Below, in pieces: positions 37,538 through 44,171 of a stretch of DNA of 64,000 nt (its first letter is position 1; each line of letters starts with the position of its first letter). This DNA is from an uncultured Spartobacteria bacterium (GTDB taxonomy: Bacteria > Verrucomicrobiota > Verrucomicrobiia > Chthoniobacterales > Chthoniobacteraceae). The position numbers and the translations under genes were made by a program. The stretch covers positions 1-64,000 of the forward strand of contig CAIRYQ010000122.1 in the NCBI GenBank assembly GCA_903882875.1. Direction: 5' to 3'. Below the pieces are notes generated by a model that was given only the letters and a program-made list of their open reading frames with translations, searched no databases and was not told the origin of the DNA.

Positions 37538-37609
37538 GTCCCCGTAGTTCAACGGATAGAACGCTGGTTTCCTAAACCGGTGATGTGGGTTCGATTCCCG
37601 CCGGGGACA
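37538..37609 (+). tRNA. tRNA-Arg (anticodon CCU)
   Basis: This is a complete 72-base cloverleaf. The 7-bp acceptor stem is GTCCCCG/CGGGGAC. The D arm is GTTC...GAAC, the anticodon stem CTGGT/ACCGG (one G-T) with loop TTCCTAA gives anticodon CCT, and the variable loop has 4 bases. The T arm is GTGGG-TTCGATT-CCCGC and the discriminator base is A. CCA is not encoded. It reads AGG codons. Confidence 0.96.
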
Positions 37610-37692
37610 CTGCTCTGAAACGCGCTGCGTGTTCCTTATCGTATTTTTGGGATTCCGATATTCCATGCACAAGAGATCAGCCCGCTCACTCC

Positions 37693-37746
37693 CCGATGCC
37701 TGTCCGAGTTCTGACCGTCCACGGGGCAGCGGTCACGAAAGCAAAT
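37693..37746. repeat. 54-base intergenic repeat, copy A
   Basis: This is the first of three gap-free copies starting CCGATG and ending GCAAAT, with a shared core GTCCGAGTT. By eye it matches copy B (38648) at about 46 of 54 and copy C (41502) at about 43 of 54 positions. It ends 25 bases before the start of the gene at 37772. Confidence 0.8.
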
Positions 37747-37771
37747 ACCTCGCAAAAAAAAACGGTAATCC

Positions 37772-38593
37772 ATGAATCGCGCATCGCTCCTTCCTGTCGC
37801 TCTCCTCACCTTATCCAGTCTGACATGCTTAGTCACGGGAATCCCTTCTATCCGCGCTCAGACACCCCTCTCCGTCGGCTCTTCCGCAAATAGCCCAGCC
37901 AATCCAGCCAGTGTCCCTGCTGAAATTGAAAAAGTCATTCAGATGCCGGATGGCAAAGACAAAGTTACCGCGCTCAATGCCGCCATAAAAACTTGGGCGC
38001 AAAAGGATCCCACCGCGGGCCTCGCGTGGATTCTCTCCCTTCCGCAGGCTCAATACTCACAACTCAGACCGGACGTTAAAGGGTTTGCAGTGGGGGCCGA
38101 TCCGAAAAGCTCGGCAGAATGGCTCGTTCAACAAAACACCCCAAAGGCAATGGAGCTTCTTCATCCCATGCTAATCGGCTGGTCCATGTCGGATCCAAAT
38201 GCCGCCGAGGCGTGGTGCGTCAAACTGCAATCCCACGACGCCCGCGCCCGCCATGTCTCCTTCTATTCCGTGGCCGATGGGTTAATCCGCAAGAAAGCCG
38301 ATCTCGCCACCGCATGGGTGGCGCAATTACAGCCCGGTGCCGATCGCCTTTCTGCAATCGCCGGGGTGACCACGATCTGGGCGAGGGGTGACATTGTGGC
38401 AGCCACCGCATGGATCAAGACATTGGCCCCGGCTGAACTCAAACAGGCCGCCCAAGTTGTTGCGGGCGTCTGGCGCTTTGCCAAAGGCACGAGGGATTCG
38501 CCCAACCCGTGGCACAGCGTGCAGGACTGGCTCGACCAGATGCCGTTCACCCCGGCCGATAAGGAATACGTCCTGAAGAACCCTCAATCCTGA
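37772..38593 (+). CDS. Exported helical-repeat protein with W...DP units, unknown function
   Basis: This is a 273-residue protein with a signal peptide ('LLTLSSLTCLVTGIPSIRAQ'). The mature part has repeating helical units around a 'W...DP..A..W...L' pattern: 'TWAQKDPTAGLAWILSLPQA', 'GWSMSDPNAAEAWCVKLQ' and 'TIWARGDIVAATAWIKTLAP'. I have seen such patterns in verrucomicrobial exported proteins of unknown function, and the arrangement suggests a TPR/HEAT-like solenoid. No catalytic motif is seen. It lies just behind the tRNA and repeat copy A. Confidence 0.78.
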   Translation: MNRASLLPVALLTLSSLTCLVTGIPSIRAQTPLSVGSSANSPANPASVPAEIEKVIQMPDGKDKVTALNAAIKTWAQKDPTAGLAWILSLPQAQYSQLRPDVKGFAVGADPKSSAEWLVQQNTPKAMELLHPMLIGWSMSDPNAAEAWCVKLQSHDARARHVSFYSVADGLIRKKADLATAWVAQLQPGADRLSAIAGVTTIWARGDIVAATAWIKTLAPAELKQAAQVVAGVWRFAKGTRDSPNPWHSVQDWLDQMPFTPADKEYVLKNPQS

Positions 38594-38647
38594 TGCCCCT
38601 CACTTCTCCATCCGCAAATCCCGCGCAAACATCCGCCCCGTTAACTC

Positions 38648-38701
38648 CCGATGTCCGTCCGAGTTTTGACCGTCCACGGTGCAGCGGATGCGCAAGCAAA
38701 T
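38648..38701. repeat. 54-base intergenic repeat, copy B (in a 334-base intergenic gap)
   Basis: This second copy lies in the gap 38594-38927, 54 bases after the upstream stop and 226 bases before the G8 gene start. Similarity to copy C continues a few bases past GCAAAT (CTA.CAG). The rest of the gap shows no gene. Confidence 0.8.
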
Positions 38702-38927
38702 CGCTAACAGCCGGAACAAAGTTTGCGGTACCAATTTCCTGTAGTCGGCAAAATTTGCTCTAGCGAGCAGTTCAAGACGCAGGGCGACGGAAGTGGAAGG
38801 GATGTCTGGATTGCCCGGCTGTGTCACAAACTTGCTAATCAAGTCTTTGTGCATCGGTCGTCCACATCGCAGGTCTTGTCCCCGCCTGACCCCACGCCAT
38901 CTGGCAAAAAAGGGATATATCCATAGC

Positions 38928-41486
38928 ATGAACCCCCATCACCTTGTTGTTCACCAGACCTCGCTTTCCCATGACGCGGATTCCGATTCGTGCCGATTGC
39001 GCGCCAGCGCGCCGGATTCGCGTCGCTCCCTTTTGCCACTCGTCCTTGCGGTCGTCACCTGCGCATTGATGCTCGCGCCGAATGTTTGCGCTGCTGCCGC
39101 AACGAGTGATCCCGCGCACTTCCACACTCACGATGCCGTTCAATTTGATCTGCGCAGCGTCCGGGACGGCAACTGGTCAGATATAAAGACTTGGAGCCAG
39201 CCCCGCGTGCCTAAGGCCGGCGACCGCGTGCTCGTGAGCCGCGGGACGCGCGTCACGTATGATGGAGCGAGCAAGGATGTGGTCCGGCTGATTCAGGTGG
39301 TCGGAACGCTCACGTTCGCCCGGGATCGCAACACCGAACTCAACGTCGGGATTCTGAAGGTGCAGGACAGCGATGATTGCACGGAGACCGGCTTCGCCTG
39401 CGACATGGCGAAAAGGAATGCCGACGGGAAGTCGCAGGCGATGCCGACGCTCGAAGTCGGCACACTGGCCGAACCGCTGCCACGGCAATTTACGGCGCGC
39501 ATCCGCCTGCATCAGGTAGACGGTCTCGATCCGAATGACGGCCCAGCGATGGTCTGCTGCTCGGCGCGGATGGATCTGCACGGAGCGCCGATGAGCCGCA
39601 CATGGGTGAAGCTGGGCGCAAATGCCGAGGCTGCGGCCAAGACGCTCACGCTCTCCGAGCCGGTGGATGGCTGGCGCGCGGGCGACGAAGTGATCATAAC
39701 GCCGTCCAAAGTGCATCAGCGACGCGGCGTGGATCCGAAGGAATATCAGAACCAGATGGGAACCGAGGAGCGGCGAATCGTCCGCATTGACGGCACGACC
39801 GTCGAACTCGACAAGCCCCTCACGGAAGAACACTCGGGCAGCGGCGAGTTCCGCTGCGAAATCGCGAATCTCTCGCGTAATGTCATCGTGGAAAGTGCCG
39901 ATCCCGGCGGCGTTCGCGGGCACACGATGTATCACGCGAACAGCAGCGGCGGCATCAGCTATGCGCGCTTCGCGCATCTCGGAAAGCAAGGCGTGCTCGG
40001 CCGCTATGCGATCCATTTTCACCTCGTCGGCAATACCATGCGCGGGAGCCAGGTGCTGGGTGTCGCAATCGTGGATTCGGCAAATCGCTGGGTGACGATT
40101 CATGGCACCGAGTATCTCATCGTCCGCGATTGCGTCGGCTATCGCAGCGCCGGCCACGGATTTTTCATGGAGGACGGCACTGAAATTTACAATCTGCTTG
40201 ACCGCAATCTCGCCGTGCAGGCGAACCGCACGAAGCGCCTGCCGAAGCAGGCGCTGCCCTTCGATGAGAACGATGGCGCGGGCTTCTGGTGGGCGAATGG
40301 TCGCAACACATTCGTCCGGAACGTTACGACTGAAAACGACGCGTACGGCTACCGCTACGACATGCAGCACTCGAAATATTTCAACAGCACGCTCCCCATC
40401 ACGCAGCCCGACGGCACGCAGAAGCCGGTGGATGTCCGCACGATTGCGAACTGGCGTTTTGACGACAACGAGTCGCACTGCGATCAGGGCGCGGGAATGG
40501 TCATCACCGGCAACGGCGGCGCACAGCAGCCGGACACGACAGTGCGCGATCAAAAGCTGCTCGATCAGATCAAGGCGCTCGACTGGACCGGCCCTGACAC
40601 ACGGCATCCACACATCGTGCGGAATCTGAAAATCTGGGAGACCCACTACGCGTTCCGCCCTCACACGCCCTCGATGTTGATTGACGGCCTGCGCATCTAC
40701 CGCACCACCTACGGCGTCTATCGCCCGGCATTCGACAACCAAGTCTATCACAACATCCACCTCACCCGCGCGGGCGGCGAGCCTTTCAATCGCGGGATGG
40801 ACGACGCCAGTTGCCAGACCGGCGTCTTCACTGTGGATGGCCTTCAAATTGACGATCTCGACAAGGCCAGCAACCACCACACTCCGATCGTGCAGATGAG
40901 CGACAACAACCTGAGCGGGCGCGCCGAGAGCCATTTCCGCAACGTCACCTGGACCCCCTCCACGATCGGAAAGGGATCGCTTTTCAATCGTGGTGGCCAG
41001 ACACGCGGCGATCAGTTCGTGGAAGGCGGCGTGCCCTATTACCTGCACGACTATTACGGCCCCGGTCGCGACGCACGGATCATCAGCACGTCCGCCAAGC
41101 CCTTGCTTGCTGACGGCAACACCTACCACGAAGAGGCGCCGCTGACCGGTGATGAGTCGGTCGTAACCGAAGTCAAAAACGTCCCCTGGCCCAAACTGCT
41201 CGATCCTGTGGACGATCTCCCGCCTGCGACCGTCATCACCGCCGTGCGACGCACCGGCGAAATGCTCGCCGTCACCGGCATCACACACGACAACGGCGAA
41301 ATCGTGGCGGTGAAGGTGAACGGCGTGGCCGCGAATATCATCAAGACCCACAGCGGCGTCGCGGACTGGTCCATCGAAGTGCCGGTTCCCGCCGATGGAA
41401 CCGTCACCGCATTCGCCACCGACGATGCGGGCAATATGGAGCGAACCGGTCATGTCGTACGAGTGAGCCCCTCGACGCAACGGTAA
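38928..41486 (+). CDS. Exported G8-domain protein with parallel beta-helix-like body
   Basis: This is an 852-residue protein from the ATG at 38928. A long leader ends in the hydrophobic stretch 'LPLVLAVVTCALMLAPNVCA'. Residues about 75-190 form a G8 domain ('DGNWSDIKTWSQPRVPKAGD', 'VTYDGASKDVVRLIQVVGTL'). A right-handed beta-helix-like middle follows ('IHFHLVGNTMRGSQVLGVAI', 'GHGFFMEDGTEIYNLLDRNL'), then a C-terminal beta-sandwich ('TGITHDNGEIVAVKVNGVAA'). G8 domains occur in the animal hyaluronan-binding proteins CEMIP and TMEM2, and bacterial members are common in planctomycetes. A glycan-binding or lyase role is inferred. Confidence 0.85.
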   Translation: MNPHHLVVHQTSLSHDADSDSCRLRASAPDSRRSLLPLVLAVVTCALMLAPNVCAAAATSDPAHFHTHDAVQFDLRSVRDGNWSDIKTWSQPRVPKAGDRVLVSRGTRVTYDGASKDVVRLIQVVGTLTFARDRNTELNVGILKVQDSDDCTETGFACDMAKRNADGKSQAMPTLEVGTLAEPLPRQFTARIRLHQVDGLDPNDGPAMVCCSARMDLHGAPMSRTWVKLGANAEAAAKTLTLSEPVDGWRAGDEVIITPSKVHQRRGVDPKEYQNQMGTEERRIVRIDGTTVELDKPLTEEHSGSGEFRCEIANLSRNVIVESADPGGVRGHTMYHANSSGGISYARFAHLGKQGVLGRYAIHFHLVGNTMRGSQVLGVAIVDSANRWVTIHGTEYLIVRDCVGYRSAGHGFFMEDGTEIYNLLDRNLAVQANRTKRLPKQALPFDENDGAGFWWANGRNTFVRNVTTENDAYGYRYDMQHSKYFNSTLPITQPDGTQKPVDVRTIANWRFDDNESHCDQGAGMVITGNGGAQQPDTTVRDQKLLDQIKALDWTGPDTRHPHIVRNLKIWETHYAFRPHTPSMLIDGLRIYRTTYGVYRPAFDNQVYHNIHLTRAGGEPFNRGMDDASCQTGVFTVDGLQIDDLDKASNHHTPIVQMSDNNLSGRAESHFRNVTWTPSTIGKGSLFNRGGQTRGDQFVEGGVPYYLHDYYGPGRDARIISTSAKPLLADGNTYHEEAPLTGDESVVTEVKNVPWPKLLDPVDDLPPATVITAVRRTGEMLAVTGITHDNGEIVAVKVNGVAANIIKTHSGVADWSIEVPVPADGTVTAFATDDAGNMERTGHVVRVSPSTQR

Positions 41487-41501
41487 CATCCCTTTTACTT
41501 C

Positions 41502-41555
41502 CCGATGCCCGTCCGAGTTCTAACAGTCCCCGGCTCGGCGAACGAGAAAGCAAAT
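41502..41555. repeat. 54-base intergenic repeat, copy C
   Basis: The third copy lies 15 bases after the G8 gene stop and 192 bases before the start of the DUF6600 gene. It has the same CCGATG...GCAAAT frame at the same length as A and B. It is the most diverged copy in its central part. Confidence 0.75.
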
Positions 41556-41747
41556 TTCTAGCAGTTGCCGCCGCCTGCCGAAACGGGAAGATTACCGCAC
41601 CGAAGCGAGCGGCGTAATTTGGCGCTGCTCCGCAGCCCGCGAAAAATACTTCGATTAAAGACGCGACCTGCGGAGTCTGATCGTGCGAATAGAGTAAAGA
41701 ACGTTCATCCAGCAATGAGCGTTTCCAATTCCCAACCGACCCAATCC

Positions 41748-44171
41748 ATGAAAACCCGAATCGTCCTTTCCGGAATCCTGATGGCAGCCGCCTTCCCCCT
41801 CGCCGCCCGTGCCGGCACCCTGTTCTACGTCCCCGTCCCCGCAGCCGGGAGCGACGCGCAATCGGGGCTCGACAGCACGAAAGTGTACACGAACGCAGTC
41901 GCCGCAGGGAACAGGAAGGAAGCCGGACGCAACGTGAACGGCGTGCCGCTCACCGCGCTGCCGGCCTCGGGCAATTCCAACGCGGCAAACGGAGTGACGA
42001 TCTCCGCCGCGACCGGCACACTCGCGAATGGCGGCGGAAAGTCCGACAGCATCAAGGCCGACGGCGCGATGTCCGACCTGCTCGCCGGGATGATTTTCAA
42101 TGATGGTGCGGGCGACAATTCCGAGCAGTACGTGGTGCTCGATCCCGCCAAACTCGCACCCGGCAAAACGTATGACCTCCGCGTCTATGTCTGCAACGCA
42201 TCGGGGGAAAACCGGCAGGTGAACCTCTCTTTCGCGGGTGACGGCAAACCGGCGGTGAACACGGATTTTTTTAACGAGGACGATGCGACGACTTCCGCGG
42301 GTGGATTCACCGATCCGAACCAGGTCTATTACATCAATTACCGGTTCACTTGGGACGGCGTGAGCACGCCCGGTTTCACGGCCACACAGAAATTCGGCAG
42401 CACGCCATTCTGCCTTTACGCGGTGACCAATGAGGAGGTCGGCGCCGCGGTGGAAGCCCAGCCCGCCGGAGCCGTGACGCAGGTCGCGCCCGAGCCGATT
42501 GCTGAAGCGCCGCGTTCCAGCATCTCACGAACGGGTGCGGTGGACTACGAGGACGACATCGGAGTCGCGAGCGAAGTCTTTTATAACTCGGACACGCTGC
42601 GGGATCACGGGCGCTGGGTGAATGTGGGAACCTATGGCCGCTGCTGGCACCCTGCGGATGTGGACGAGGACTGGCAGCCTTACACACGCGGACGCTGGGT
42701 CTATTCCAATGACGACGGCTGGGTGTGGGATTCGGATGAGGATTTCGGCTGGGCCACCTATCACTATGGCCGCTGGTTCCGCGAGGAAAATGCCGGCTGG
42801 TTCTGGGTGCCGGGCCGCGTGTGGGCACCCGCATGGGTGTCATGGCGGCACGGGCATTCCTTCGTCGGCTGGGCACCGCTGCCTCCGCTCGCGCTGGCGG
42901 CTGCGGGCATCGGGATCGGCTCGTGGGCGGATCATCGCTGGGGCATCGGACCCCATGCCTATAATTTCGTGAACGTGCGTGATTTTGGCGCACGCTCAAT
43001 GGCGAAGGTTCTCATCCCGCGACAGCAGAATGCCGCAGTGATGACGAACACCGTCAACGTCACCAACGTCGCGCACAGCAAGCACGGGATCTTCAACGGC
43101 GGGCCGAGCTTTCAGGCCTTGAACAACGCGCTCGTGCGCTCCGGCGGCGCGGCGATTCCCACCGTGAGCGTCTCCCGCAAAACGGGCACGAAGGCGGTCA
43201 CGCCGGACGGAAAATTTTCACACCTGTCCGCGGGCGTCCTCTCGGTCGCCGCGCCGACCGTCACACGCGCAAAGAAATCCGCCGCATTGCCGCCTGTCGC
43301 CACGACGATCGCGTCACCGAAATTCGACAAGGGCTGGAACGGCCTCACGGATCCGACCCATGCCACGGCATTGCAGGCGAAAATCGCCGGCGAGACGCCG
43401 GGAGCCAAGGCAAAGACCGCGCCTGCGCGGCTGCCCGGCGCGATCGTGTCCGCGGGCGTGGCAACCGCAACCTCGAGCACAAGTCCGCTGAAGTCATTCC
43501 GCCCAGGCAAGCCGCCCGGCACGCCGGGCACACCTCCTCCGACTGCGTTCGTCAAGCCGGGCCTGCCGGTGAACTCAGCGGTCATAGCGACGCCTCAGCC
43601 GCTGCAACCCACCACTCCGATTGTCGGCAACAAAAAGAAACCCGGCAGCAAGACGACTGGCACAAACGTTCCCGGAACACCCCCTGTCACGCCCGGAAAC
43701 CCAGTGGTGATCGTTCCGCCGAAACCCGGAAAGCCGGGAACGCCTGCGTCCGTCACACAGCCAGCAACCATTCCGTCCACAGCGCAACCGACCGTTCCAA
43801 AACCCACGGCTGTGCCGACACCGGAGCCAATCCGGGCGAAGAAAGGAAAGCCGCAACCCGCGACGCCGGGCACGGATCCCGTCATCAAACCGGCTCCGAC
43901 GCCCGAACCCGTCCGCATTCCGAAGCGCACGGTGCCAGTGGCCACACCGGCTCCTGCTCCGATAAAACCCACAGCGACGCCCAAACCCGAACCTCCCCGT
44001 ATCCCGAAGCGCGTCGCTCCGCAACCGACTCCAGCCCCGGCTCCAGTTGCAAAGCCGGTCCCGGTTCCCGTGAGGCCCGCGCCAGTCGTCATTCCGCCGA
44101 AGCCCGCGCCGGTCGCCCCGACAGCACCGAAAGGCAAGCCCACGCCTACGCCTGCACCGACCAACGGCTGA
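41748..44171 (+). CDS. Exported DUF6600-like protein with a long Pro-rich tail
   Basis: This is an 807-residue protein from the ATG at 41748 (a second ATG at 41715 is in frame). After a signal peptide ('MAAAFPLAARAG'), residues about 30-240 form an unassigned beta-rich domain. Residues about 265-400 carry tryptophan-rich repeats of the DUF6600 kind, such as 'HGRWVNVGTYGRCWHPADVD', 'GRWVYSNDDGWVWDSDEDFG' and 'VSWRHGHSFVGWAPLPP'. From about 585 to the end it is a Pro/Thr/Lys/Ala-rich tail with repeated 'TPEP.RIPKR' units. It is probably surface or envelope associated. No enzymatic site is seen. Confidence 0.82.
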   Translation: MKTRIVLSGILMAAAFPLAARAGTLFYVPVPAAGSDAQSGLDSTKVYTNAVAAGNRKEAGRNVNGVPLTALPASGNSNAANGVTISAATGTLANGGGKSDSIKADGAMSDLLAGMIFNDGAGDNSEQYVVLDPAKLAPGKTYDLRVYVCNASGENRQVNLSFAGDGKPAVNTDFFNEDDATTSAGGFTDPNQVYYINYRFTWDGVSTPGFTATQKFGSTPFCLYAVTNEEVGAAVEAQPAGAVTQVAPEPIAEAPRSSISRTGAVDYEDDIGVASEVFYNSDTLRDHGRWVNVGTYGRCWHPADVDEDWQPYTRGRWVYSNDDGWVWDSDEDFGWATYHYGRWFREENAGWFWVPGRVWAPAWVSWRHGHSFVGWAPLPPLALAAAGIGIGSWADHRWGIGPHAYNFVNVRDFGARSMAKVLIPRQQNAAVMTNTVNVTNVAHSKHGIFNGGPSFQALNNALVRSGGAAIPTVSVSRKTGTKAVTPDGKFSHLSAGVLSVAAPTVTRAKKSAALPPVATTIASPKFDKGWNGLTDPTHATALQAKIAGETPGAKAKTAPARLPGAIVSAGVATATSSTSPLKSFRPGKPPGTPGTPPPTAFVKPGLPVNSAVIATPQPLQPTTPIVGNKKKPGSKTTGTNVPGTPPVTPGNPVVIVPPKPGKPGTPASVTQPATIPSTAQPTVPKPTAVPTPEPIRAKKGKPQPATPGTDPVIKPAPTPEPVRIPKRTVPVATPAPAPIKPTATPKPEPPRIPKRVAPQPTPAPAPVAKPVPVPVRPAPVVIPPKPAPVAPTAPKGKPTPTPAPTNG

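Follow-up and report, generated by a model that had tools for sequence, protein, structure and literature searches.

Three repeat copies and their gene setting

The window analysed here is a stretch of 64,000 nucleotides from an uncultured Spartobacteria bacterium (contig CAIRYQ010000122.1, positions 1 to 64,000), and in it a short repeat, which we call R, was observed three times within one string of genes, each time on the plus strand. A tRNA-Arg (CCT) at 37538..37610 (+; ARAGORN, with Rfam RF00005 at 37538-37609) lies just upstream of copy A (37681..37755), and copy A is followed by gene 1 (37772..38593, +), which encodes a 273-aa protein with a signal-like N-terminus and without a Pfam family over the cut-off. 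Copy B (38636..38710) lies between gene 1 and gene 2 (38928..41486, +), which encodes an 852-aa G8/CEMIP beta-helix protein (PF24606 and PF10162 over the cut-off). Copy C (41490..41564) separates gene 2 from gene 3 (41748..44171, +), encoding an 807-aa protein with DUF6600 (PF20245) and a signal-like N-terminus.

The core of each copy is a gap-free block of 54 bases (37693-37746, 38648-38701 and 41502-41555). An earlier sequence-only reading had described these blocks as starting at 37693, 38648 and 41502, with CCGATG as first letters, GCAAAT as last letters and GTCCGAGTT inside, and all of this was exact. Its estimates of about 46 shared bases between A and B and about 43 between A and C were exact on recount as well; B and C share 42 of the 54 columns. 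A 21-base core pattern with up to three mismatches matched the window four times, where 0.42 matches were expected and none of 100 shuffles reached four. With up to two mismatches the same pattern matched the whole genome (5.78 Mb in 129 contigs) 12 times, compared with 0 matches for the reversed control pattern. The similarity of the blocks is thus well above chance.

Each block had also been described as lying ahead of a gene for an exported protein and inside no gene. The following genes start 16, 217 and 183 bp downstream of A, B and C, but B and C also sit 42 and 3 bp past the preceding stop, so the placement "ahead of" a gene holds only in part. No gene predicted by our own gene caller, on which all neighbour statistics below rest, contains any of the three. 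The export of the products was judged with a crude hydrophobicity rule applied to the N-terminus from our own gene starts, and proteins that pass it are here called signal-like. Genes 1 and 3 pass; gene 2, read from the ATG at 38928, fails, with a hydrophobic stretch that starts late.

The tRNA-Arg (CCT) was found identical over 75 of 75 bases in a related genome (G003:C153), where nothing else of the searched window region matched. A second copy of its 3' end, which could mark an island, was searched for in the window, and only the tRNA itself was found.

Extent, ends and range of the repeat

The ungapped 54-base block is real, but alignment of copies showed that the repeat unit is longer, about 75-80 bp: (CAGA)CCCCCTCACTCCCCGACGCCCGTCCSCGTTCTGACCGTTTCCGGTGCGGCGGGCGCGAAAGCAAWTTCCTNGCAG. 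Its right edge is sharp and its left edge is preceded by a weak CA[GT]A. A longer unit of ~250 bp, of which R is the 3' end, could be aligned in 24 copies, and a profile of its upstream part gave 32 matches in 107 stretches fetched from genomes of the genus, of which at least two are not followed by R. Partial matches lacked the 5' part in 17 cases and the 3' part in 6, with contig ends responsible for at least 2 of the 17 and at least 1 of the 6. Among 129 copies, nine carried an exact repeat of their own sequence within the 60 bases behind R. Four of the nine end at R's last base (46, 19, 12 and 10 bases, at G000:C77, G005:C37, G002:C149 and G002:C111, respectively); the other five comprise one full tandem copy and four short repeats (9-10 bases) that end elsewhere. 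As a control, up to 393 distant pieces gave 10 such matches, which puts the short repeats near chance. The excess of matches without the 5' part, together with the repeats that stop at R's last base, makes the 3' end look like a defined end, and hints that it served as one in the process by which copies were made.

No target-site duplication was found among 130 copies when words of 3 to 8 bases were compared over many offsets (identity exceeded that of shuffles by at most 4.3 points), and by eye the two ends, CAGACCCCCTCA... and ...AATTCCTNGCAG, are not mutual inverted repeats. Without target duplication and visible terminal inverted repeats, R is not a classical miniature inverted-repeat transposable element (MITE). 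Folding of both strands, which had been proposed as a check, gave a mixed answer: the consensus of R is more stably folded than its shuffles (z -2.06 on the plus strand and -1.60 on the other), but none of the three copies in the window is (z between -0.94 and 0.80, both strands included). RNAalifold placed 0 pairs on an alignment of the 125 distinct sequences among 131 copies. For one specified hairpin, 87.2% of the cells were paired versus 86.8% in shuffled alignments (22 of 500 reach it), and double-change cells numbered 10 versus 4.6 (6 of 500 reach it), an excess that related sequences can yield without structure. R also had no match in Rfam, and with these results the option of a small-RNA or mRNA element found no clear support. 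We read the hairpin as part of the active sequence, lost from old copies including those in the window. Two frames of R are open throughout, and genes that enter it end in recurring peptides, among them ...PPHSPTPVRVLTVSGAAGAKAIS and ...DPLTPRRPSxF; database proteins with these tails would point to R-cut genes.

R is widespread among close relatives. The own genome contains 27 matches at E up to 1, 24 of them at 0.01, and all 10 genomes of the genus (own included) contain R, with 1 to 44 matches each. A total of 160 matches lay in the 107 fetched stretches, and the 131 that are close to full length are the copies described by the placement counts below. R was observed in 19 of 40 genomes of the family, in 6 of 9 genera with the own genus included; G002, G005 and G416 are among the R-rich genomes. 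A phylum sample of 387 genomes returned the own genome as its sole match, at a sensitivity that was low because few candidates were scored per genome. An exact 43-base pattern of R was found in 21 stretches of a genome collection, 20 of which belong to records titled Verrucomicrobiota, Verrucomicrobia, Spartobacteria, Chthoniobacter, Chthoniobacteraceae, Pedosphaera or Prosthecobacter. The remaining one (L185, CALQJI020000050.1) stands in a bin titled Klebsiella pneumoniae, a label that is probably wrong. Two exact patterns gave 0 matches in viral contigs, where exact matching is insensitive, and plasmids gave no match. No description of such a repeat from Verrucomicrobia was found in Rfam or among the papers listed by literature searches, as far as titles and the openings of abstracts tell.

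Copies tend to resemble those of their own genome: the nearest relative of a copy lay in the same genome for 48.5% of copies, compared with 22.8% under shuffled labels (maximum 0.339 over 200 shuffles). Identity to the consensus had a median of 0.893 and a minimum of 0.667. The three copies in the window belong to the more decayed ones, with identities to the genus consensus of 0.81 (A), 0.73 (B) and 0.77 (C); in blastn, copy A was 89% identical to a family consensus that we had typed. Identical copies were observed within some clusters (G005:C9, G002:C111 and G000:C77). Local homogenisation was considered as an explanation and rejected, with only some clusters near-identical and a small mean difference between near and distant pairs (0.843 vs 0.828).

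A second repeat, of ~190 bp and 76-93% identity, was also seen (L043 5394-5580 and 9689-9884; also in L047, L126, L127 and L262). It has a terminator-like hairpin at its edge, is often near R and occurs in 9 of the 10 genus genomes among the matches listed.

Gene neighbours and junctions between relatives

Of the 131 copies, 58 lie between two genes on R's strand, 11 between two genes on the opposite strand, 20 in convergent and 19 in divergent gaps, and 23 have no predicted gene on one side of the stretch. Fifteen lie within predicted genes. In co-directional gaps R therefore follows the direction of transcription (58 vs 11), and yet it stands neither strictly before nor strictly behind genes. 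The proposed search of the genome and its relatives did find many copies, mostly intergenic, without a single position relative to genes. Neighbouring copies are strongly co-oriented (53 of 59 pairs of matches within 6 kb on the same strand), and at G009:C3 this is kept where the genes in between run the opposite way. By GC skew of the fetched stretches, 24 copies lay on one replication strand and 32 on the other, which is no clear bias.

The neighbours themselves are diverse. Pfam scans of 64 of the 86 listed downstream neighbours gave 115 families, the commonest in three of them, and scans of 56 of the 71 listed upstream neighbours gave 106 families, the commonest again in three. Genes for signal-like proteins are enriched behind R in general: 39 of 73 genes with R up to 300 bp upstream on the same strand were signal-like, compared with 59 of 196 behind R-free gaps of 100-600 bp (p 6e-4) and 5 of 20 where R has the other orientation (p 0.04). 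The claim that exported-protein genes follow the blocks thus extends in part beyond the window, within which gene 2 fails the rule. Genes just upstream of R on its strand were signal-like in 24 of 59 cases, versus 150 of 527 other genes. Copies ahead of signal-like genes are not nearer to the genus consensus (medians 0.893 vs 0.880 and 0.907; p 0.04), nor to the consensus of their own genome (0.893 vs 0.907 and 0.907; p 0.035), and their distance to the gene start ranges from 3 to 234 bp.

Some genes appear to be cut at R. Nineteen of 22 overlaps between R and a predicted gene are on R's strand, and five domains end incomplete where R begins when compared with their Pfam profiles: a tRNA methyl-transferase/thiouridylase type, an M20 peptidase, a sigma factor, a trigger-factor domain and DUF1587. 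A thioredoxin at R was cut against some profiles and complete against another. Among 117 copies, coding frames abut R on its own strand 19 times on the left and 27 times on the right, and on the other strand 9 and 7 times; at randomly chosen positions in these stretches the fractions were 0.48 and 0.29. R hence avoids genes, and cut genes show no special excess on the left. With frames at least as common on the right, a model in which retro-copies cut genes on the left side only was unsupported. Five of the 117 copies have coding frames in one direction on both sides and could be plain insertions into genes. The missing parts of three cut genes were sought in searches covering 2396 of 3438 and 950 of 1090 prepared bases. 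G008 has a second mnmA-like match, of 89% identity. The other half of the G002 sigma-factor gene lies at the start of a contig whose first 64 bases match the end of the R-cut piece at 92% identity. The remainder of the M20 peptidase gene was searched for in G002 and not found. These results do not discriminate between foreign pieces and broken resident genes.

Comparison of close relatives, with a flank search that covered the G009 copies (3622 of 7354 prepared bases), showed what may be exchange at R. G009, G004 and G006 share a segment of ~97% identity at G009:C3. Behind its first copy, R1, G009 and G004 are 98% identical; before R1 the long form is only ~82% identical and the match ends there. 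The next breaks between the two genomes fall within R2 and at the end of R3. At the R2 site G009 has one R and G006 ~270 bp more, and G004 has over 1.2 kb of other DNA; all that remains of R in G004 is its tail, close to where the next contig starts. At R3, G004 goes on with a segment Y, and in G009 Y follows another R, on contig C67; the arrangement is thus X-R-Y in G004, and X-R-Z plus a second R ahead of Y in G009. About 240 bp of the G009 continuation past R3 were found at another place in G004, in an R-free stretch. For the R at G009:C7, the flank on its left can be followed in G004 and G006, and the break lies in a shared CAGAC.

A second group of relatives gave a similar picture. G003 reads U-R-D, one contig of G002 reads U-R-~860 bp-D, and another contig of G002 reads U-R followed by other DNA. 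The ~860-bp segment (L262 5911-6790, G002), whose gene we take to be of nucleotidyltransferase type, is absent from G003 at this place, and a shorter version (L046 1685-2146, G000) abuts an R. Relatives of gene 3 at G002:C228 and G003:C707 align from window positions 41627 and 41641 onward, and no R was found in the stretches fetched around them. The window blocks that flank gene 3, which we assume to be rsmA-like and trpC-like genes, lie on other contigs in G002 and G003. In these draft assemblies, several breaks of synteny between relatives thus fall within R or at its ends, with the exceptions named below.

Interpretation and comparison with known systems

R is very likely a dispersed repeat specific to one family of Verrucomicrobiota, and it likely has the properties of a small mobile element. 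It is also likely a recombination junction, subject to assembly error. Taking these parts together, we hold with moderate confidence that the three blocks are old members of the dispersed R family, a family-specific mobile repeat that acts as a recombination junction. A mobile small repeat had been among the options raised from the sequence, and the many dispersed copies, the subfamilies by genome, the scatter around the consensus and the differing junctions in relatives support it. R would be, or have been, a small non-autonomous mobile sequence, with a transposase, recombinase or reverse transcriptase acting in trans as candidate maker of the copies. Its co-oriented copies would serve as portable homology or as a recombination site at which segments are gained, lost and swapped. 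Exchange at R would join unrelated and sometimes truncated genes, and would have made the string tRNA-R-gene1-R-gene2-R-gene3 of the window. This explanation needs no regulatory function, and R is not shown to be an operator, leader or RNA; the exported-protein genes may simply be among those most often exchanged. A bolder form, in which R is the working site of an undescribed cassette system outside integrons, strikes us as improbable. In it a dedicated enzyme (recombinase, single-strand transposase or reverse transcriptase) would excise R-ended segments, insert them at the 3' end of further copies and so shuffle genes, with a preference for those of exported proteins, between related Verrucomicrobiota.

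Several observations weigh against a mobile repeat that acts as a junction. G006 departs from the common segment 144 bp ahead of R3. The Y stretch that G009 and G004 have in common behind R ends in G009 where there is no R. A clean empty site was not found; at G009:C7 only ~200 bp align (82-84%) and the right flank is unrelated. Junctions are visible in only two groups of relatives, the genomes of the genus are in about 120 to 790 contigs, and R is the type of sequence at which assemblers err. A neutral repeat would predict neither the orientation along transcription (58 vs 11 in co-directional gaps) nor the enrichment ahead of signal-like genes. Near pairs of copies are hardly more alike than distant pairs of the same genome (means of 0.843 and 0.828). 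No mobilising enzyme could be tied to R, which was present in 0 of 30 fetched Y1-transposase loci, out of 54 matches listed.

The bias towards signal-like genes, together with the orientation of R along transcription in 58 of 69 co-directional gaps, is what one would expect if R were a 5' leader, promoter or operator common to exported-protein genes, duplicated together with these genes and preserved by selection. We give this explanation little credence. Twenty of the 131 copies lie in convergent gaps, the window copies have neither the hairpin nor a sigma-70-type promoter match, the spacing to the gene start varies widely and the neighbours share no common family. Copies ahead of signal-like genes are no better conserved than others (0.893 vs 0.907 and 0.907, p 0.035), an enrichment is also present among the genes upstream of R (24 of 59), and the predictor is crude and applied to our own gene calls. 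The shared promoter or operator proposed from the sequence alone was not borne out on these grounds. It is rather unlikely that the shuffling is only apparent, with R an ordinary dispersed repeat and contigs misjoined or broken at its copies. In favour of such an artefact are genomes of up to 790 contigs, several contig ends at or near R, identical copies within some bins and a listed contamination of 7% for G002. Against it, the R before Z and the R before Y in G009 differ at several positions and thus have no long identical word in common, and similar junctions occur in genomes that we judge to stem from separate projects.

The manner in which copies were made could take other forms. R may be the end of a non-autonomous single-strand transposon of the IS200/IS605 (insertion sequence) kind, or of the kind formed by repetitive extragenic palindromic (REP) sequences and REP-associated tyrosine transposases (RAYT), moved in trans by a Y1 enzyme, with the changes at junctions secondary; this is compatible with R as a mobile repeat and junction, and is unlikely, if not strongly so. 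A consensus that folds better than shuffles (z -2.06), a second hairpin-like stretch by eye at the start of the long form, the absence of target duplication and the presence of Y1 transposase genes in all 10 genomes of the genus agree with it. It sits less well with the 30 fetched Y1 loci, none of which carried R, with the unclear replication-strand bias (24 vs 32), with a hairpin that covaries marginally and with a target fixed only by the weak CA[GT]A at the left edge. Spread through RNA, in which a short R-ended transcript is taken by a reverse transcriptase that may switch template to mRNAs and leave 5'-truncated, R-tailed copies, would account for the longest partial tandem copies (46, 19 and 12 bases) stopping at R's last base, for the 17 matches without the 5' part versus 6 without the 3' part, for the 3' end that long and short forms share and for several sense gene pieces that end at R. 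We consider it very unlikely: abutting open frames (27 of 117 on the right, 19 of 117 on the left) reveal no excess of R-tailed pieces, and the partial tandem copies are few, the shortest near chance; reverse transcriptases were not searched for. Finally, the co-oriented arrays with one or few genes between copies, and integron integrases over the cut-off in 3 of 10 genus genomes, recall an integron attachment site (attC) or a cluster of attC sites without an integrase. The paired end boxes of attC sites, RYYYAAC ... GTTRRRY, are absent from R by eye on 125 aligned copies, the integron of the own genome has classical attC sites of other sequence, and R was above chance in 0 of 8 integrase stretches (best E 0.48). 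R as a classical attC site is refuted by these results, and we regard any attC-based explanation as extremely improbable.

That integron lies at G000:C117 (L159 4555-9730), where several classical attC sites (~110-180 bp) precede an integrase scoring 417.9 bits to TIGR02249. Between the integrase and the contig end, a tandem array with a repeat of ~21 bp (L159 10345-10712) is open in several frames.

If R is a mobile repeat and junction, it drives gene exchange and truncation in a little-studied bacterial group and explains part of the broken assemblies, and its sites are defined places at which insertion, loss and swapping can be followed in long-read data. On this reading, gene strings separated by R should not be taken as operons under a shared control element.

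Among known systems, integron cassette arrays resemble R: in both, unrelated genes lie between co-oriented sites, and relatives carry different segments at a site. R differs in a sequence unlike the resident attC, in its absence from all eight integrase stretches and in bounding segments of up to 8 kb, one of which has all genes opposite to R. Like a MITE, R is small, non-coding and mobile-looking, with many decayed copies, but it has no target-site duplication or visible terminal inverted repeat, and its long and short forms share a 3' end. With REP sequences and bacterial interspersed mosaic elements (BIMEs), as their features are generally understood, R shares tens of copies in some genomes, a mostly intergenic placement, a hairpin-forming consensus and restriction to one lineage. 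R is longer (75-80 bp), occurs also in divergent gaps (19 of 131), is strongly co-oriented and had no Y1 transposase beside it among 30 loci. The intergenic mosaic elements of Neisseria and similar repeat arrays with a role in recombination, compared here by general anatomy, consist of short paired repeats around variable ones and are unlike R in this respect; they resemble it in having intergenic copies where neighbouring genes are exchanged.

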